From: Candidatus Kerfeldbacteria bacterium | GTDB lineage: Bacteria > Patescibacteriota > Patescibacteriia > UBA9570 > XYC2-FULL-38-9 | DNA: 53,289 nucleotides | Assembly (NCBI GenBank): GCA_016182555.1 | Contig: JACPGJ010000006.1 | Span: 1-53,289, forward strand | Direction of reading: 5' to 3' | Part shown: positions 5,969-50,513 of the stretch, one piece after another | Position numbering within the stretch: position 1 is the stretch's first letter | Layout: every line of letters begins with the position of its first letter | Position numbers and translations under genes: made by a program | Notes under the pieces: generated by a model | What the model saw: only the letters and a program-made list of their open reading frames with translations | The model's database searches: none | Told to the model about the DNA's origin: nothing

Positions 5969-6780
5969 CTTTGACCGCTGAATACACGATAAGCATCACA
6001 AACCAAAACTGATATTTTTTCACACATTCATAATTGAATGTTCGACCAGTTGAGGCTCATCAACCGAAGTTGAGTCCTCATCTTCTCCCTAGAAAGGAGG
6101 TGATCCACCCACAGCTTCCGCTACGGGTGCCTTGTTACGACTTCATCCTTGTCACCAGTCCTACCTTCGTCCTTTCTTACTGAAAGGCCTTCGGGTATTA
6201 CCGGCTTCCCTGATGTGACGGGCGGTGTGTACAAGACCCGAGAACGTATTCACCGCGCCATGGCTGATACGCGGTTACTAGCGATTCCAACTTCATGAGG
6301 GCGAGTTGCAGCCCTCAATCCGAACTGGGGGAAGGTTTGATGGGATTTGCTCCACCTTACGGTTTGGCGTCCCATTGTTACTTCCCATTGTAGTACGTGT
6401 GTCGCCCCGGTCATAAGGGACATGCTGATTTGACGTCATCCCCACCTTCCTCCCTGTTGTCCAGGGCAGTTTGGTATGACACGTAGTAACATACCATAGG
6501 GGTTGCGCTCGTTAACGGACTTAACCGTACACCTCAAGGCTCGAGCTGACGACAACCATGCAGCACCTGTCTTAGCGCTCCCTTGCGGGCACCCCCCCGT
6601 TTCCGAGAGGTTCGCTAGATGTCAAGACCTGGTAAGGTTCTTCGTTTGTTGTCGATCCCCGTCAATTCCTTTGAGTTTTAAGCTTGCGCTCGTACTCCCC
6701 AGGCGGGATGCTTAACGTGTTAACTTCATGATACCGGGGGGGTCGACTCCCCCAATACCTAGCATCCATCGTTTACGGCG

Positions 6781-6816
<36 letters not shown>

Positions 6817-7072
6817 CGCTTTCGCTCGTGTAGTGTCAGGTGCGTCCAAGTAAGTTGCTTTCGCCATCGGTGTTCCTGCTGATATTAACGCATTTAACTG
6901 CTACACCAGCAATTCCACTTACCCTTTCCGACCTCTAGTTGAGTAGTTTCAAGCACGGATCCGAAGTTAAGCTTCGGGCTTTCATGCCTGACTTACACAA
7001 CCACCGTTGAGCTCTTTACGCCCAGTAAATCCGGATAACGCTTGGGGCCTTCGTATTACCGCTGCTGCTGGC

Positions 7073-7999
7073 CACTAAAATTGATTTTTAGATCTATGTG
7101 GACTATATCACCTTCCATAATTATGGAGGCTCGGCGTCTGATAGAAGTTTAATTCCTGAATATCAGGTACCTTCTATCTCACCCTTACGGGTTCAGTCTC
7201 TGAGGGGTCAAGATGTTTAAATAATGGGAGCTTATACGCAAAACAACTAAGAATATACGGCTGAATGGTTTGAAGAAATTGATCTCGACCACGTTTGCCG
7301 ATATATAATTTAATATACTTTTTCCCTCGTGAAGAAGGAGATTGGATTGACGATTCAATTGAAAATGTATTCCAGAGTACTGTTTGGAGAGTTTTGACCT
7401 CTTTTATAGAAAAGGCATCGGTACTCATTGAAAAAGAGTAATGATATTTTTCTCTAAAATCGAGGGTTCCATCATCCATATACCAAATAGCCAGTGTGAG
7501 CGGTGATTGAAAGAGTTTGGTAATAGTAGAAGGAATAATTTTTCGACCGCCTTGGTAAAATAGTTTTTTTATAGTCGTGAATTCTTCAATATAACGAGTT
7601 CCAAAGTACCATTGATTGTTATCTTGCCGGTGCTGCGGAGGTGTTTTGACTAGGTGAGAAAATTGCTCATATAGCCAGAAAACATACTCTTTTTTTGCTG
7701 CAGTCTGCTTGATTTGCAATCGAGTGCCAATATAACCGTTATATTCTAGTGATCCATCACCAAGGAGTAATCCGATCAGTATATCTTGTTGTTGTTGCGA
7801 TAAGATATTGACCATTATTGTATCATATCCGACTTCCCTGCTGATTGTCTATCGGGATCTTGAATGAATTCAAGACGCAGCCCCATACTAGATTTCCAGC
7901 ATATAAGCCAAGTTTGCTATTCGTCTTACGACGAAAAGTCGCGCACGGTATTTTATCTACGAAATTTTATTGCTATTTGTACTGCTATGTACTTTTTTC
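7073..7999 (-). mobile_element. Group I intron in 16S rRNA at position U516 (E. coli numbering)
   Basis: The 16S sequence breaks between CTAACTTCGT and GCCAGCAGC. Placing the borders so that the 5' exon ends in U and the intron ends in G, as group I splicing requires, gives exactly 7073-7999 (927 nt). Near the 3' end the minus strand shows CCTCAGAGACTGAAC, like the conserved R element (P3/P7), and GGTGATATAGTCC, like the S element AAGATATAGTCC (P7); upstream of the ORF AATCAGCAGGGAAGTC resembles the P/Q region (P4). An endonuclease ORF fills a peripheral loop between these core halves. Bacterial 16S introns occur mainly in Patescibacteria. Subgroup and P1 pairing were not resolved. Confidence 0.88.
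7174..7815 (-). CDS. LAGLIDADG homing endonuclease of the 16S intron
   Basis: 213 residues with two LAGLIDADG helices: DILIGLLLGDGSL near residue 15 and LTLAIWYMDDGTL near residue 110, each ending in the catalytic acidic residue. Two motifs in one chain mean a pseudosymmetric monomer that cuts an asymmetric site, here presumably intron-less 16S genes around position 516. The ATG at 7815 lies just after the P4-like element, and the stop lies inside the R-like element, so the last ~8 codons (PSETEPVRVR) double as intron core. Some related proteins also act as maturases; that is not visible here. Confidence 0.92.
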   Translation of the reverse strand: MVNILSQQQQDILIGLLLGDGSLEYNGYIGTRLQIKQTAAKKEYVFWLYEQFSHLVKTPPQHRQDNNQWYFGTRYIEEFTTIKKLFYQGGRKIIPSTITKLFQSPLTLAIWYMDDGTLDFREKYHYSFSMSTDAFSIKEVKTLQTVLWNTFSIESSIQSPSSRGKKYIKLYIGKRGRDQFLQTIQPYILSCFAYKLPLFKHLDPSETEPVRVR

Positions 8000-8124
8000 A
8001 CGAAGTTAGCAGCCCCTTATTCCTGTGGTACCATCGCAAGTTTTTCCCACAGAAAAGCAGTTTACACTCCGAAAAGCGTCTTCCTGCACGCGGCGTCGCT
8101 CCCTCAGACTTTCGTCCATTGGGG

Positions 8125-8179
<55 letters not shown>

Positions 8180-8423
8180 AGGCGGGTCATGCTCTCACAC
8201 CCGCTACCCGTCGTCGCCTTGGTGAGCTTTTACCTCACCAACTAGCTGATAGGCCAAAGGTCCCTCTCGAAGCGAAAAATCATTTACATAGGAATGTCAT
8301 ATGACCTCCTATGTCCATCGGGTATTAGCCACCGTTTCCGGTGGTTGTCCCCGTCTTCGAGGTAGGTTACCACTGTCTTACGCACCCGTTTGCCACTATA
8401 TCGTTCGACTTGCATGCCTTAGA

Positions 8424-8463
<40 letters not shown>

Positions 8464-8793: not shown

Positions 8794-8863
8794 GCGGCGA
8801 AGGGTTCGTATTCCAGCACACATTGTGCACAATTTGTAAACACATATACAGGATCAGAAATGA

Positions 8864-8930
8864 CCGTTCGCGCCAGTGCCCCTTCACTAGCCGCTAATCG
8901 CTGAATCGTTCAGGAGCACTGCCGCTACGG
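8864..8930. other. Long imperfect hairpin between trmD and the 16S promoter
   Basis: Arms CCGT-GCG-CAGTGC-CC and GG-GCACTG-CGC-ACGG pair with small internal mismatches (about 15 pairs), enclosing a smaller hairpin CTGAA/TTCAG. There is no T-run, so it is not an ordinary terminator. A perfect 12-nt palindrome ATTGTGCACAAT lies at 8822-8833. Together with the 16S leader this accounts for the 470-nt gene-free stretch; nothing coding was seen. Confidence 0.5.
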
Positions 8931-8939
8931 TTAAAATTG

Positions 8940-12342: not shown

Positions 12343-15030
12343 CTATTCTTGGACTAATTCTTCCGCTTCGGTGAGTTCAACGCTGAGGATATGTGATTTA
12401 CCTTCTTTGCCAACAGTGACACCATAGAGAATATCGGCAGCGCGCATAGTGACGCGGTTATGGGTGATAATCACAATTTGTGTTTTGTGGCTGAGCTCCG
12501 AAATAATGGCTGCGAGTTTTTCTGAATTTTCTTCATCTAATGCTGCTTCAACTTCATCGAGCACGACAAATGGAGATGGATTGTGTGCAATAATTGCGCA
12601 GAGCAGCGCAATAGAGATAAGCGATTTCTCTCCGCCAGAAAGAGCAGTCACATTCGTGATTTTTTTCCCTGCGGGCGATGCCATAACATCAATGCCCGAA
12701 ATGACTTTTTGTCTCTTCTTCTTTTTGCCAATCAGTTCGCGTTCTTTTTCTTGTTGAATACTTTCTGTGGCGCCATCAGACACTACGGTATCAGTCGCAT
12801 CAACGTTTTCTTCTTCAGTATCGGTGAGCATTAATAATTTTGCTGCGCCTCCACCAAAGAGCACCGTGAAATATTTTTGGAAATGTTCATTGATCCGTTT
12901 AAAGTTTTTTTGGAATTGTGCATGAATGGTTTTATCTAATTCATCAATGATTTTTTCGAGTGAAATAATTGCCGTAGAAAGATCGGTTGTTTGTTTTTGT
13001 AAGAAATCAAAGCGTTCTTTGGTTTCTTCATATTCTTTCATCATCTCTGGGTCAATGCTACCGATGGATTCCAATTGGCGACTGAGTGAAGCCATCTTTT
13101 CTTCAGCGGCATGGCGTGCAGTCAATGGTTCGCCGGTGTAATGATAAATGGCGTCAATAGATTCACTTGGCAATGCTCGCGTAATGGTATTTTGTACATC
13201 TTCTCGGCGTGTTTCTATTCGAGCAATATGAATTTCAATACTATTGGCTTGTTGGCGGATAGCGGTGAGTTTGCGCTGCAGTGTACGAATATCGCTTTGA
13301 ATACTCACTAAACGCGTTTTCTTTTCTTCTTCTTCTTGGTTGAACTGGTCAATGTTCGCGCGAACCGCATTCAATTTTGTATCGTCGTGTGCAATCTGTC
13401 CTTCTAATTCGTTGAGTGTTTCATGTTGACGTTTGATTTGGTCTTGTGCTTCGTTACTTTCTTTTTCTGCACTGGCAGCCGTGATATCAGATTGAATGGT
13501 TGCCAGTTCGTCTTCACCGCGGCGAATTTGCGTATGCAGCATCTGTACTTTTGCACGACAAGATTCAATACTCACTCGCAGTTCATTCAGTTGGTGTTGA
13601 GCGGTGTCGCGTTCTTGCACTAATCGTTCCAACAGTTGTTCCTGATGTTTCATTTCTACACGTAGTGCTTCCACGGCGTCTTTTTCTTCTGCATGTAGGC
13701 GATCCATAAATTCGGCAAATTGTTGTGTAAGGCGTTTGCCATGTGACTGGACACTTTTGAATTCTTCCAGCGATTTTGTTTGCAGTAATTGGCGCAAGAA
13801 ATCTTGTTGTTGTGCAAATAAATTTTGTAGTTCGGTTTGAATTTCGGGAATCGTCATCGCATGTGATCGTGTTTCAATCTGTTCTTTCAATTTCAAAATA
13901 TTGTATTCTTGTTCACGAAATTCATTCTTGAGCGATTCCACATTTTTTTCGGCACGCGCGAGTTCGTTTTGTTCACGGTGCATCTGCTCTTCTAATAATT
14001 GTACGCTGCCAGCTTGCTCTTGAATGTCTTTCAAAATTTCATCTTCTTTGCGTTTCATCCATACGAGGCTGAGTTCCCCTTGTTTTTGATGCTCTAATTC
14101 TAACTTGCCTTTTAATACGGCTTGTTCTTTTAATAAAAAACTTTTGTGTTCGAGCAGCTCATTAAACTGTTGTTGGAGTTGTTGATAGCGTTCTCCACGG
14201 GATGCTTCTTGCGAAATAGCGTCGCTTGCTGTTTGTGCGGTAGCAAGGTCTGATTCTAATTGTTGTGTTGTCGTTTGTTGTTGCGCCAGCTCTGTTTTGA
14301 GTGTGTGATGCTCCGCGGTTAATTCGTTCCACAGTGAACCATAGTATTGAATTTGGAGTGCGCGTAATTCTGTTTCTAATTTTTCCCGTTTTTCTAAGCG
14401 TTTCACTTGGCGCGTCAATGATTGTAAATGTGGTTCAATTTCGGTCAACAATACTTCGCCTTGTACCAAGTGTTCTTCAGTGCGGATCAATTTATTTATG
14501 GCTTGGTCGCGTTTAATTTGAAATTCACGCACGCCGGTGGCTTCGTCAAGAAATATTTTTCTCTCTTGAGGTGTGGCATTCAGGAAATGGGTAATCATGC
14601 CTTGGCCAATAACTGCATAAGATTTTTGACCAAACTTGGCTTGGGCAAGCATGAGGATAATATCTTGCAAACGCACCTGCGCATTATTCACCCGATATTC
14701 CGATTCGCCGCTGCGGAAAATTTTACGAGAGATGACCACCTCATTGTAATCGAGCGGAAGTTTATGGTCGCGGTTATCGAGGTGGAGTTCGACTTGTGCC
14801 ATGCCCAGACGAGAGAGTTGATCGGAACCGCCAAAAATAACATCATGCGAAGATTTGCTGCGCAGTGTTTTCATGCTCTGTTCTCCTAATACCCAGCGAA
14901 TGGCATCGGCGATATTAGATTTTCCTGAACCATTTGGCCCAACAATAGCCGTGAAGTTTTTTGGGAATTCAAAAACAGTTTTATCGGCAAAAGATTTAAA
15001 CCCGTGGAGAACCAGTTTATCTAAACGCAT
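12343..15030 (-). CDS. smc: SMC-family chromosome segregation ATPase without a visible hinge
   Basis: 895 residues; typical SMC is 1,150-1,200. N-terminal head: MRLDKLVLHGFKSFADKT, Walker A GPNGSGKSN at 31-39, IRWVLGEQSMKTLRS. Coiled coil runs from about 170 to 780, rich in Gln/Glu/Lys. C-terminal head: signature TALSGGEKSLISIALL near 797, Walker B FVVLDEVEAALDE near 822, His switch VIITHN. At the midpoint (residues ~395-470), where the ~150-residue globular hinge should be, there is only more helical sequence with a break near HAMTIPEIQ. The head sequence is SMC rather than RecN, Rad50 or SbcC (no CxxC hook). The -10 box is 7 nt before the ATG, so the mRNA is leaderless. Confidence 0.88.
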   Translation of the reverse strand: MRLDKLVLHGFKSFADKTVFEFPKNFTAIVGPNGSGKSNIADAIRWVLGEQSMKTLRSKSSHDVIFGGSDQLSRLGMAQVELHLDNRDHKLPLDYNEVVISRKIFRSGESEYRVNNAQVRLQDIILMLAQAKFGQKSYAVIGQGMITHFLNATPQERKIFLDEATGVREFQIKRDQAINKLIRTEEHLVQGEVLLTEIEPHLQSLTRQVKRLEKREKLETELRALQIQYYGSLWNELTAEHHTLKTELAQQQTTTQQLESDLATAQTASDAISQEASRGERYQQLQQQFNELLEHKSFLLKEQAVLKGKLELEHQKQGELSLVWMKRKEDEILKDIQEQAGSVQLLEEQMHREQNELARAEKNVESLKNEFREQEYNILKLKEQIETRSHAMTIPEIQTELQNLFAQQQDFLRQLLQTKSLEEFKSVQSHGKRLTQQFAEFMDRLHAEEKDAVEALRVEMKHQEQLLERLVQERDTAQHQLNELRVSIESCRAKVQMLHTQIRRGEDELATIQSDITAASAEKESNEAQDQIKRQHETLNELEGQIAHDDTKLNAVRANIDQFNQEEEEKKTRLVSIQSDIRTLQRKLTAIRQQANSIEIHIARIETRREDVQNTITRALPSESIDAIYHYTGEPLTARHAAEEKMASLSRQLESIGSIDPEMMKEYEETKERFDFLQKQTTDLSTAIISLEKIIDELDKTIHAQFQKNFKRINEHFQKYFTVLFGGGAAKLLMLTDTEEENVDATDTVVSDGATESIQQEKERELIGKKKKRQKVISGIDVMASPAGKKITNVTALSGGEKSLISIALLCAIIAHNPSPFVVLDEVEAALDEENSEKLAAIISELSHKTQIVIITHNRVTMRAADILYGVTVGKEGKSHILSVELTEAEELVQE

Positions 15031-15043: not shown

Positions 15044-15116
15044 CCAGAATTATCCTGAAAATGGTATACTTTAACAAGACTATTTTATCATGGTCCTTCC
15101 ATGGTCCTGTGCGATC

Positions 15117-15166
15117 ATTCTTCGAGAGCTTCGTTTTGCTTCGCAAATACGTGCTCTCTCCAGAAT
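15117..15166 (-). repeat. 50-nt dispersed hairpin repeat, copy A
   Basis: Read on the minus strand it has arms ATTCT/AGAAT and GAGAGC/GCTCTC around an inner hairpin TTGC-gaa-GCAA. Copy B at 48999-49048 (plus strand) matches 44 of 50 positions and has GAAAGC/GCTTTC in the same arm, so the stem is conserved by paired changes. Copy A sits between the smc promoter and the CAP-domain gene. Confidence 0.8.
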
Positions 15167-15200
15167 GAACGCGAAGGCCATACTCCTATAACTCTATTTT

Positions 15201-16544
15201 ATGCATACATACAAAAAAATTTGGTTTGCCTTAGTGCTGTTGAGTGCAGTTGTTTTTCCATCATTCGTTTTTGCAGCCGGGCCACAGATTACGATAGATA
15301 ATACCGAAGACGCTGTAACCATTTTGAAAAATCCAGACAGTTTTTCTGGAGAAACGTTTATATTGTCCTATGACGGCGCTCAAGATATTCAGGCGATGCG
15401 GATCAATCGTGATGACGTGTATTACGTCGTGACGGCAGTCAAAAAAGCCAATGCCATTCGTTTACGATTATATACTAATGCCGGAGAGAAATTAGCTGGG
15501 CGTTTGGTATTTAGTAAAACGGATGAACAAGCATTCGGTGCAATGAAGTTTGATGTGCTGACGAATAATGAACAAGTGGCTTTTCGCGTTCGCACGGTGA
15601 AAATGAACGCCAGCGGCCGCCCAACACGTTTTTTGCGTAAAACATTTTATATTCGCCCCACCAGCGACCATACGATGAAGCGGCGTACCGCTGGTGTGAA
15701 AAAAATTGAGTATCCGAATTTTTCCGATAAAACAAATGAAGAAGGTGGGCTGGCATTATTGAACTATCAACGTCTTGCTTCGGGCATTTTGCCAGTACAG
15801 CGCACCACGGAATTGGATTCTGGTTGCGCCTTGCATGTAGAGTATTTACGGTTGAATGACACGCTTTCTCACTTTGAGGAAGAAGGAAACCCGGGCTATA
15901 CCGAAGAAGGGAGTGCTGCGGGTCAAGCGAGTAATTTAGCTGGCATGTACAACAATACGAGCATGATTAAAGCCATTGGTATTTGGACCACTGCGATTTA
16001 TCACCGTTTGCCGATGTTCAATAATGGTTTGCAGTCGGTGGGTTGGGCGGTGTCCAGTACGAGTGCCAGCAATTATAATTATGCCTGTATTAATGTGGGG
16101 ACGAGTAAAGATTATGGCGAGCTGACCCAAAGCGGTACGGAAAATAATTTTACCTATTACGATCCCTATAACCATGACCCCATTCCCTACCCAGGGGTTG
16201 GACAAACCCATATTCCAACGACCTTTGGTACGGGTGAATCTCCGGATCCGTTGGAAGATTTTAACGGAACGTATCCAGCAGGTGAACCGATTTCGTTGAT
16301 ATTTTCTGACAATGATACGGTCTCAGATATGGCAATGACTCTCACTGATGCCAGTGGGAATTCCCTATCTGGTTATTTCCGTGCACCAGATGATCCTGAA
16401 GACCCAAATAGCATTTACCAAGGTAATAGCGTAACATTTATTGCTGAAGAGCCGCTGGATTCTGCCATGACCTATACAGTGAATGTGACCGGAAAAGTGA
16501 ATGATACTTCCTACTCAAAAGAGTGGAGTTTCACCACGGAGTAG
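15201..16544 (+). CDS. Secreted CAP-domain protein
   Basis: 447 residues. Signal peptide (KKIWFALVLLSAVVFPSFVFA), an N-terminal beta-rich region of ~150 residues with no clear family, then a CAP/SCP-PR1-like domain from about residue 180: ALLNYQRLASGILPV, CALHVEYLRLNDTLSHF and later WTTAIYHRLPMFN, matching the NxxR, HS.xM and HR..L positions of bacterial CAP proteins. The last ~100 residues look like a Big_5-type Ig-like domain (YPAGEPISLIFSDNDTV..MTYTVNVTGKV). It is likely exported; its activity is unknown. TATAAC ends 8 nt before the ATG, suggesting a leaderless mRNA. Confidence 0.75.
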   Translation: MHTYKKIWFALVLLSAVVFPSFVFAAGPQITIDNTEDAVTILKNPDSFSGETFILSYDGAQDIQAMRINRDDVYYVVTAVKKANAIRLRLYTNAGEKLAGRLVFSKTDEQAFGAMKFDVLTNNEQVAFRVRTVKMNASGRPTRFLRKTFYIRPTSDHTMKRRTAGVKKIEYPNFSDKTNEEGGLALLNYQRLASGILPVQRTTELDSGCALHVEYLRLNDTLSHFEEEGNPGYTEEGSAAGQASNLAGMYNNTSMIKAIGIWTTAIYHRLPMFNNGLQSVGWAVSSTSASNYNYACINVGTSKDYGELTQSGTENNFTYYDPYNHDPIPYPGVGQTHIPTTFGTGESPDPLEDFNGTYPAGEPISLIFSDNDTVSDMAMTLTDASGNSLSGYFRAPDDPEDPNSIYQGNSVTFIAEEPLDSAMTYTVNVTGKVNDTSYSKEWSFTTE

Positions 16545-47659: not shown

Positions 47660-48970
47660 TCACGATGCATTTTTTTCCTCTATCGCGAATAGTTTTTGTA
47701 CAAACAGGAGACTCAACCAAAACCAGAAGAGGATTGAGAGATCGTTTTTGAAATAGGGCACGTCAACTAGTCCATAGACAAGAATGCTGATAAAGACGCC
47801 AAATAATATGAGGCCCAGTGGTTTTTTTGCGTGAATGGTTTTCGCAATAGTGATGAAACTATAGATCAATATCATCATGATCCAGATCAAACCAAGCAGC
47901 CCAAGCTGTACCCAAAAATCGAAAAAGATATTATGCGCATATTCTAATAATTCAATATGTGAAGGTAGGCGGTAGATATCATAGAGGATGGGAAATCCCG
48001 CAAGACCGGAACCGACAAACGGATGGGCACGAAGCAAGTGCAGCGTTCCTGTCCATAGTGCTAGGCGAACATCTCCAGAGACATCTTGAAACAGTAACAC
48101 GTGGCGAATAGGTGGAAGTGTCAACGCCAGCATTAGGCCAACTGTGCCAATAGTGAGGGTTGCCCACCGCCATTTGGTGAAGAGTAGCATGCAGCCGGTC
48201 GCAGCGATCACCGCAACAATAGCACCGTCAGATCGTGAAACAATTAACGCTCCAAAACAGAGGATGATCATACACACCATAGCAAGATTTTTTTTTCTTC
48301 CGGTAAAAAAACCACTCAGGAGTGTCCCGATGAGCATAGTCAGGATAGGTGCAATGTAGAGCCCAACAGCATTTGGGTAACCATAGAAAGCGGTTGCTCG
48401 GCGATTGGGAAGGTCGTGCCACGGTGCCGGAATATGCCAGCCAGTGAAATATTGAAACACGGCCACCGCAGCGATGATTGTTGCCGAAAGCCCAAGTGCG
48501 CTGAGGCAGAGCGCCACGTCTTTTCGTGTACGAATAGACTGTGTGCAGATGATAAAAAAGAGAATGGGTTCAATGATATAGGCTTTCCATATCCCTGCTC
48601 CTGCCCGTATATCAGGAGTCACGAGAAGACCAATGACTGAAGCAATAAGTAATAAGGCTATATTTCCATACCAGAATTTGTTGCTCGCGTCCTTCAACAG
48701 GCTTAGGGGGGTAGACCACCGTGTCATGGTGAGCCTGTCGAACCATGAAGGGATGAACGCGCGGAAGGGTGTAGCGAGCACGATACTTTTTATGATATGT
48801 ATGAAAAAAAGAACTATAATCATCACTTCAAGCAATGTGAATGGAATGCCAAATATGGAAAAACGAATGAGGTAACTGGGAAGTAATAGTAAAACAAAAG
48901 CAACGCCCCATACTCGATTTTTGATAGTAAGAACAATAGTAATAATGCTGAAAAGTATGGCGATGATCAT
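47660..48970 (-). CDS. O-antigen ligase/polymerase-like membrane protein (second copy)
   Basis: 436 residues with 10-12 helices. The Wzy_C/WaaL-type core is visible: a large exterior loop region with PHPF-like AHPFVGSGLAGFPILYDIYRLP and YAHNIFFDFWVQLGLLGLIW. It would join or polymerise lipid-linked glycans outside the membrane. Residues ~70-97 (AFIPSWFDRL..STPLSLLKDASNK) are encoded by a REP-like palindrome and look like an in-frame insertion in the loop after the second helix. It is the last gene of the polysaccharide operon, separated from its neighbour by 112 nt that contain repeat copy B. Confidence 0.8.
   Translation of the reverse strand: MIIAILFSIITIVLTIKNRVWGVAFVLLLLPSYLIRFSIFGIPFTLLEVMIIVLFFIHIIKSIVLATPFRAFIPSWFDRLTMTRWSTPLSLLKDASNKFWYGNIALLLIASVIGLLVTPDIRAGAGIWKAYIIEPILFFIICTQSIRTRKDVALCLSALGLSATIIAAVAVFQYFTGWHIPAPWHDLPNRRATAFYGYPNAVGLYIAPILTMLIGTLLSGFFTGRKKNLAMVCMIILCFGALIVSRSDGAIVAVIAATGCMLLFTKWRWATLTIGTVGLMLALTLPPIRHVLLFQDVSGDVRLALWTGTLHLLRAHPFVGSGLAGFPILYDIYRLPSHIELLEYAHNIFFDFWVQLGLLGLIWIMMILIYSFITIAKTIHAKKPLGLILFGVFISILVYGLVDVPYFKNDLSILFWFWLSLLFVQKLFAIEEKNAS
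48680..48763 (-). repeat. REP-like palindrome embedded in frame in the polymerase gene
   Basis: Arms TTCAACAGGCTTA (48693-48705) and TGAGCCTGTCGAA (48730-48742) pair at 11 of 13 positions, with a second palindrome CATGGT..ACCATG (48725-48747). The GAGCCTGTCGAA core is a widespread REP-type intergenic motif. Here it encodes about 28 residues. Confidence 0.6.
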
Positions 48971-48998
48971 GTTATGAGTGTATCCGGCTGTAGCGGCA

Positions 48999-49048
48999 AT
49001 TCTGGAGAAAGCACGGCTTTGCGAAGCAAAACGAAGCTTTCAAAGAAT
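48999..49048 (+). repeat. 50-nt dispersed hairpin repeat, copy B
   Basis: Arms ATTCT/AGAAT and GAAAGC/GCTTTC around TTGC-gaa-GCAA; the outer stem extends with GC..CA/TG..GC. 44 of 50 positions equal copy A at 15117-15166 in the opposite orientation. Confidence 0.8.
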
Positions 49049-49082
49049 TGGCGCGAAAGGCCGGAAGGATAAACATATCTAT

Positions 49083-50513
49083 TCATAAAGAATGACGTTT
49101 TAGCAACACCATATTTTGTAATGCAATCAGCAGACCAATGGTAAACCAGACATGAACAATATAGAGAATGGAAAAAGTATTGTACTGCACTAAAATAGCG
49201 ACGAAGGCTGTGGTTGCGCCGACAAGCACAGCACGAACGAATGCATCTTGCGCACGTTGTATCGCTTTTAATGAACGAACAAGCACAATCAGGAAAACCA
49301 GTATCATGCTTCCAAAACCAAGAACGCCGGTTTCTGCGAGTAATTCTAAATATTCATTATTCACAATATGCCAACCTTGATCTGGAATGATATAGGGATG
49401 TCCGCTTTCATAAGGACCAAAACTTCCTGGGCCGATACCAATAATCGGGTGTGTATGAAATGCAACCAACGCTACTTCAAACATTTCTACACGTTCGGAG
49501 TATGATGCCCCAGAAAAAATATTGGTGACATGTCCAAGGAAATTTTCTGATAATGTATCAATGCCAATAAAGCGAAACACGATAATCACACCGAAAACGA
49601 AAGCGACCAATGCGCTGGTGATCGTACGCATACTGAGCAGTTGACGTTGAAAGAAATAGTAACAAAGAATAAGGCCAATACTGATGCCAAAAGCAATATA
49701 CCCACCCCGAGCAACGGTGAGTAACAAATTGAGTACGCCAATACCAGCAATAACTAACAGCTGTAGCGGAGTACATTTTTTCACCTGCGCAATAAATAAT
49801 GAAATCACGATAGATAATGGCGCCAGCAAGTAGTTGGCAAAATAGAGTGGTTCCAGCGCCGTGGATTGAACACGCGGGAAACCGAGCACTTCTTTTGTAT
49901 AGAGCTCACGTAAGCCAGTCAGTGCTGTGGGGAGGCCAATGAGATCGCCGACAAATTGATAGAGTCCGAATACACACACGAGAAACAATGAAATGAAATA
50001 CCACGTTAACAGTTGTTGCAGTTGTGTGGTGTTTTGCACCAAAAATGGAATCATGAGGCCGATTGCGATGGTAAATATGGTGAAACAGAACACCAGCACA
50101 GACCGATCCAAGTTTGGTGCATTAAATAATCCGCATACATTCACAAAAAGAAAAATGATGATTGGCCAGACAATGGGGTTTTTGGGTAGGCGGAAGCGCC
50201 GAGTGCCGAGACCATTCACCACCAGTGAAATCATGATGCATAGCGCGATAATTTGAGACGGTCGTATAGTGGAACCGGCAAAGTCATATGAACCAATGCG
50301 TTCAAACGGCAGGAAAAAAATAAATAGAAGCATGCCATGCCACGGATTGTTGATAATCAGCATGCCGATGAGCACACAACCTAAACCGCCAAATAGAAGA
50401 ATGGGTGAGGTGCGAGTACTCAGCCAACCGAGCAGCACAATGAGTGCGCCACTGAATATCCACCACAAGAGGGGGAGGGCTTTGATCCGATGTATCATGG
50501 ATTGCAGGGTCAT
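49083..50513 (-). CDS. O-antigen ligase/polymerase-like membrane protein (first copy)
   Basis: 476 residues, about 12 helices. The Wzy_C-type core shows THPIIGIGPGSFGPYESGHPYIIPD with the conserved His/Gly pattern and NNEYLELLAETGVLGFGS. It is related to, but clearly different from, the downstream 47660-48970 protein; two such enzymes might do polymerisation and ligation respectively. The start lies 7 nt after the glycosyltransferase stop, so they are cotranscribed. Confidence 0.85.
   Translation of the reverse strand: MTLQSMIHRIKALPLLWWIFSGALIVLLGWLSTRTSPILLFGGLGCVLIGMLIINNPWHGMLLFIFFLPFERIGSYDFAGSTIRPSQIIALCIMISLVVNGLGTRRFRLPKNPIVWPIIIFLFVNVCGLFNAPNLDRSVLVFCFTIFTIAIGLMIPFLVQNTTQLQQLLTWYFISLFLVCVFGLYQFVGDLIGLPTALTGLRELYTKEVLGFPRVQSTALEPLYFANYLLAPLSIVISLFIAQVKKCTPLQLLVIAGIGVLNLLLTVARGGYIAFGISIGLILCYYFFQRQLLSMRTITSALVAFVFGVIIVFRFIGIDTLSENFLGHVTNIFSGASYSERVEMFEVALVAFHTHPIIGIGPGSFGPYESGHPYIIPDQGWHIVNNEYLELLAETGVLGFGSMILVFLIVLVRSLKAIQRAQDAFVRAVLVGATTAFVAILVQYNTFSILYIVHVWFTIGLLIALQNMVLLKRHSL

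Follow-up and report, generated by a model that had tools for sequence, protein, structure and literature searches.

The genome of a Candidatus Kerfeldbacteria bacterium appears to host a non-autonomous family of mobile elements, small palindromes that work like the Rickettsia palindromic elements (RPE) and that are, as far as searched, restricted to its lineage; we put the probability of this explanation at roughly 70%. On our best reading the unit is an undescribed, RPE-like palindrome of about 83 nt, with a total of about 23 copies in the genome: 16 with near-identical cores, five that are clearly diverged and two that are weaker. Two of the copies with near-identical cores and one of the weaker ones lie in the window, the 53,289-nt stretch of DNA analyzed here, which is the entire contig C5 of a 1.38-Mb, 8-contig genome that is 95.8% complete. 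This family provides an independent system in a genome that is streamlined and unrelated to the earlier hosts of such palindromes. It includes recent copies and exact cores, and relatives show empty sites.

The preliminary description reported a 50-nt hairpin repeat at 15117..15166 (+, copy A) and 48999..49048 (-, copy B). Both copies were found at these coordinates, both are intergenic, and they are mutually inverted, with an identity of 45/50 (BLAST 90%) rather than the 44/50 originally counted. The repeat is not a product of chance, because its 21-nt centre occurs twice in the window, where 0.01 occurrences would be expected, and because no shuffled sequence folds as well as either copy (z about -5.5, reaching -5.9 for copy A). 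The length first given to the hairpin proved too short: the palindrome extends to about 83 nt, and the 50 nt are its conserved core only. Copy A in full spans 15100..15182 (+) and scores 92.5 bits with the covariance model R2; its fold z is about -5.5 to -5.9. It lies between two divergent genes, one for an SMC/RecF/RecN-type ATPase (12343-15030, -) and one for a CAP-domain protein (15201-16544, +). Its core consists of an ATTCT..AGAAT stem, an internal loop, a GAGAGC/GCTCTC stem, and the apical TTTTGCTTCGCAAA. The full copy B, at 48983..49065 (-; R2, 98.1 bits), is flanked by two genes that Pfam identifies as Wzy_C (O-antigen-ligase-like), at 47660-48970 (-) and 49083-50513 (-). About 230 nt from copy B there is also a small palindrome, TCATGGTGAGCCTGTCGAACCATGA (48722-48750); TGTCGAACCATGA repeats are common across many bacterial genomes.

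A probable third copy in the window, diverged, lies at 8859..8935 (+), between the 16S rRNA region and a tRNA (guanine-N1)-methyltransferase gene. It scores 20.4 bits with R2 (E 6e-4 within the window, filters off) and folds with a z of -4.6. The outer arms (ACCGTTCGCGCCA ... TGCCGCTACGGT) are kept and match the exact arm pattern CGCGNCAN{30,60}TGNCGCTA, and the inner stem and apex have been replaced. The sole additional match to the arm pattern, C6:12304, looks like chance. At 6093-8461 of the window, about 700 bp interrupts the 16S rRNA gene and carries a LAGLIDADG_2 homing endonuclease ORF (7174-7815, -). This interruption and the small genome make the host resemble members of the Candidate Phyla Radiation.

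The hairpin has a layered architecture. Its outermost part is a copy-specific outer stem, often NNTGGCC/GGCCANN, inside which an asymmetric loop, TTTC/TAC (or TTC/TAC), leads to a GCG/CGC stem. Next inward come a one-by-one mismatch (usually C-C), a CAATTCT/AGAATTG stem, and the loop TC/TCC, and at the centre are the GAGAGC/GCTCTC stem, a loop, and the TTTTGC-TTC-GCAAA apex. Compensatory changes between copies A and B, on which the preliminary description relied, amount to one pair (G-C to A-T, in GAGAGC/GCTCTC); the remaining differences between the two fall in internal-loop regions. The claim that the fold is kept beyond the sequence nevertheless holds, with strong covariation, but this is visible only when all copies are compared. 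In a MAFFT alignment of the 16 core copies that was not fitted to the structure (A1), both sides have changed in 12 of 31 pairs, with a covariation score of 0.154 against 0.078 for shuffles. Adding three diverged copies (A6) raises this to 17 of 31 pairs with 92.8% of cells paired, counts that are biased towards the structure since A6 was fitted to it; its score is 0.291, against 0.101 when shuffled and 0.04-0.08 when the partners are slid. The internal loops are invariant while the stems covary, and what is conserved is the structure.

Further copies, on which the preliminary description had staked its case, are present: BLAST of the host genome found 16 core-bearing copies and one half copy. 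Covariance models built from 15 copies (R1) and 18 copies (R2) added those at C3:57988, C8:261520, C2:48187, C2:84898, and C2:36755. R2 matched the host genome at 20 places with E<=2.1e-15, and matched a copy in the MnmA gene at 1e-7. We regard 21 copies as firm and two as likely, the latter being the half copy at C2:129638, in a UvrD gene, and the one at 8859-8935 of the window. With the exception of the half copy, the diverged copies form much more stable folds than shuffles, at z values of -3.4 to -8.4.

Intergenic DNA makes up about 11% of the genome and holds about 19 of the 23 copies (P about 2e-15, with the genic share of about 89% estimated from the window and applied to the genome). 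Gene starts at the loci, called with an ORF heuristic, are uncertain in L010, L012, L013, and L015. Several copies lie 7-30 nt from gene ends, and this proximity, together with covarying stems, conserved internal loops and apex, and strong folds even among diverged copies, is what would be expected of functional structured RNAs or mRNA-borne hairpins (acting in stability, in processing, as a protein-binding site, or like a terminator) that were duplicated and kept for their fold. The element is, however, indifferent to the strand of its neighbours. The flanking gene pairs are co-directional, convergent, or divergent; in the ten co-directional cases the element runs with the genes in six and against them in four, and the divergent sites (copy A, L012, and L043) exclude a role as a 3' element for either gene. 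Additionally, R2 scores the reverse strand at up to 47 bits, and in ORFs either strand may be the coding one. The hairpin has no U-run, and an intrinsic terminator was rejected on that ground and on the occurrence of copies in divergent intergenic regions. A known RNA was likewise rejected: Rfam was negative at copies A and B (gathering score, window) and without a match at E<=1 in five loci, in keeping with the earlier statement that the repeat belongs to no known family. The structured-RNA half of the preliminary proposal, as a cis-acting RNA, is thus improbable, and the placement pattern fits a DNA element tolerated chiefly between genes.

Long ORFs, some of them essential genes, contain four of the diverged copies, all in-frame. 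The R strand is coding in the valyl-tRNA synthetase (ValRS; L041), MnmA (L049), and UvrD/PcrA-type helicase (L052, the half copy) genes, and the F strand in a GT4 glycosyltransferase gene (L042). Residues of the element are unmatched in alignments of ValRS, MnmA, and PcrA to solved homologues. The glycosyltransferase copy is also in-frame, but its solved homologue is very distant and an insertion is not cleanly demonstrated there. Compared with family-level relatives, the closest ones compared (48-72% identity for ValRS and 55-65% for MnmA), the host ValRS and MnmA carry about 24-27 extra amino acids, an insert of about 26 residues. The ValRS insert lies between the catalytic and anticodon-binding parts and the MnmA insert in the C-terminal part. 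The palindrome is stop-free in most frames, and in-frame inserts probably survive because of this and because their sites are loops. The MnmA copy (L049:1501-1605) has a two-hairpin apex and forms a 105-nt palindrome, longer than its protein insert of about 78-81 nt, and some of it may therefore come from the host or from a nested fragment.

Inserts of this kind also bear on whether the hairpin could serve the cell as DNA, as a protein-binding cruciform or as a chromosome-organizing or replication-pausing site whose shape is under selection, rather than being selfish. Its strand independence, its pairing kept despite sequence change, and its exclusion from most coding DNA would all fit such a role, as would the main-family apex, which reads GCGAAGC on the R strand and belongs to a type known to form very stable single-strand DNA mini-hairpins. 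Yet the in-frame ValRS, MnmA, and other inserts are difficult to account for as placements that the host selected, relatives have no firm copies, and the distribution is patchy, with four copies within 16 kb of contig 7 and none on about 240 kb of contig 2. We consider a host-serving DNA hairpin very unlikely.

Outside the host, BLAST of 56 relatives gave no matches, and covariance-model searches gave no convincing copy in the 27 nearest relatives and none in 379 other sampled members of the phylum, weak matches being rejected on inspection. No viral contigs matched, and plasmids and phages gave only matches of 23-28 nt, which is chance level. Searches of the open-access literature turned up no such elements for this part of the tree. 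The nearest relatives belong to other genera, and the family could therefore be common within the host genus. A genome of the same order (G006) matched at L051, L058, and L059, but the repeat at these three places is another one, a short dispersed hairpin (CCTTCGATAC..TTTTGCTTCGCAAAA..ACTCAGG), and the single match in G408 is a hairpin lacking the conserved loops. A wider family was rejected as well: the apical-core pattern matched only two MAG contigs (Babeliales, L022, and Ignavibacteria, L023), in which the GCTTCG-rich apex is shared and the arms are not. These two contigs have GTAGCTTCGTTTGGCTTCGCCAA in common, which in L023 lies downstream of an apparent tRNA 3' end.

The mobile half of the preliminary proposal of a REP/MITE-like element or structured RNA stands, with about 23 dispersed copies, in-frame gene inserts absent in relatives, and an apparent piece of a second copy beside L039. 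Mobility would follow from the dispersal and from inserts missing in relatives, where the relatives compared are of other genera. The REP/RAYT half finds no support. REPs are linked to RAYT (Y1) transposases, and a search for one had been suggested; Y1_Tnp (PF01797, RAYT-type) had no matches in the 95.8% complete host genome, while the control matched in 5 of 14 genomes. DDE_Tnp_1 (PF01609), whose control matched in known genomes, and the reverse transcriptase domain RVT_1 were also absent from the host genome, and direct repeats at the copies did not exceed re-paired controls, leaving no sign of target-site duplications (TSD). A REP/REPIN- or MITE-type element moved in trans by a RAYT or another transposase, present or recently lost, could explain dispersed intergenic palindromes, and on the R strand several copies have GTAG or GTAA beside the GCGGC stem, which resembles the GTAG tag of REPs. 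Against it stand the missing Y1_Tnp, DDE_Tnp_1, and TSD, a size and single-hairpin architecture unlike those of REPs (83 nt is far above 20-40 bp), and gene insertions that are atypical for REPs; of the explanations weighed, we find this one the least probable. We thus rejected REP/RAYT for want of Y1_Tnp, a DDE MITE for want of TSD and DDE_Tnp_1 (the only DDE family searched), and reverse-transcriptase copying for want of RVT_1.

The core and the arms of the element have distinct histories of change. Across 105 copy pairs the mean pairwise difference is 7% in the 50-nt core and 44% in the arms, and five copies have identical cores and arms that differ at 24-61% of positions, mostly still paired. 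In the core, TAC/GCC and the T-A/C-G pair at the end of the CAATTC stem serve as two markers and are combined in each of the four possible ways, which suggests exchange between copies. Directly after L039 comes TCGAGGAATTGTCGCT, which covers arm and stem and recurs in L010; it is probably the remains of a second copy lying against or around the first. There are three candidate explanations of the decoupling: the core may have been gene-converted, it may have been re-inserted into palindromes that were already old, or its sequence may be under selection while for the arms pairing suffices. Quasi-palindromes may also be 'corrected' by template switching, which could contribute to the pairing of the arms but should erase the conserved mismatches as well. 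Alternatively, the arm covariation could reflect selection for a cellular role of the hairpin.

In the mobile-element explanation that we favour, the unit would act as DNA, an extruded cruciform or single-stranded hairpin being recognized and copied, and it would move through that hairpin or cruciform with the help of a presumed trans-acting enzyme. The core would be homogenized among copies by gene conversion or re-inserted into older palindromes, either of which would yield identical cores within diverged, paired arms. It is conceivable, if doubtful, that the palindrome instead spreads independently of any transposase by being copied into palindromes that are already there, among them its older copies. 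An invariant 50-nt core would then travel or be gene-converted between diverging self-complementary arms, and the element would sometimes become a ready-made protein insert of about 26 residues. The system allows three questions to be tested: whether a DNA hairpin is the form in which such elements move, whether gene conversion homogenizes them, and whether they add a functional peptide to proteins. Annotators should also bear in mind that a short insert without explanation in a conserved enzyme could be a piece of mobile DNA.

Palindromes that invade proteins have been documented mainly in Rickettsia and Wolbachia, and in a single archaeon; their mode of movement is a long-standing question. 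RPE comprise ten families, with a reported size of about 150 bp, found between genes and in-frame in unrelated, often essential genes, with a conserved open frame and an unexplained mode of mobility; in R. conorii nearly half of the copies are in genes (PMC10969869). The element described here is likewise a multi-copy palindrome dispersed in one genome (about 23 copies, fold z down to -8.4), with in-frame gene copies absent from orthologues (ValRS and MnmA compared with family relatives, the PcrA-type helicase with solved homologues). In contrast to RPE, it occurs in another bacterium, measures about 83 nt (about 26 codons), has only about 4 of 23 copies in genes, and keeps an identical core within fast-diverging paired arms. 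We therefore call it 'RPE-like' and not 'an RPE', the likeness being judged on architecture and placement. The coding palindromes of Wolbachia and Methanocaldococcus jannaschii, as cited in PMC2996958, are similar in being stand-alone coding insertions in housekeeping genes; these organisms are unrelated to the host, and the likeness, taken from that citation, is again by description. PARCEL elements, amphipathic repeats of 25 aa that are arranged in tandem and linked to membrane proteins (PMC2996958), share the feature of dyad-symmetric DNA that encodes peptide and is shuffled in genomes, whereas the host element is a single hairpin and mainly intergenic. As with REPs and REPINs, there are dispersed intergenic palindromes with a GTAG-like tetranucleotide at the stem foot; REPs, however, are 20-40 bp long (PMC3733652), and in this 83-nt hairpin GTAG is present in some copies only, lies inside the palindrome, and is accompanied by no detected Y1 domain. 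The MITEs of Coxiella (PMC5896051) differ in the TSD and source transposon that were not detected here, and resemble the element in being short, palindromic, and non-autonomous and in that they may add coding sequence.
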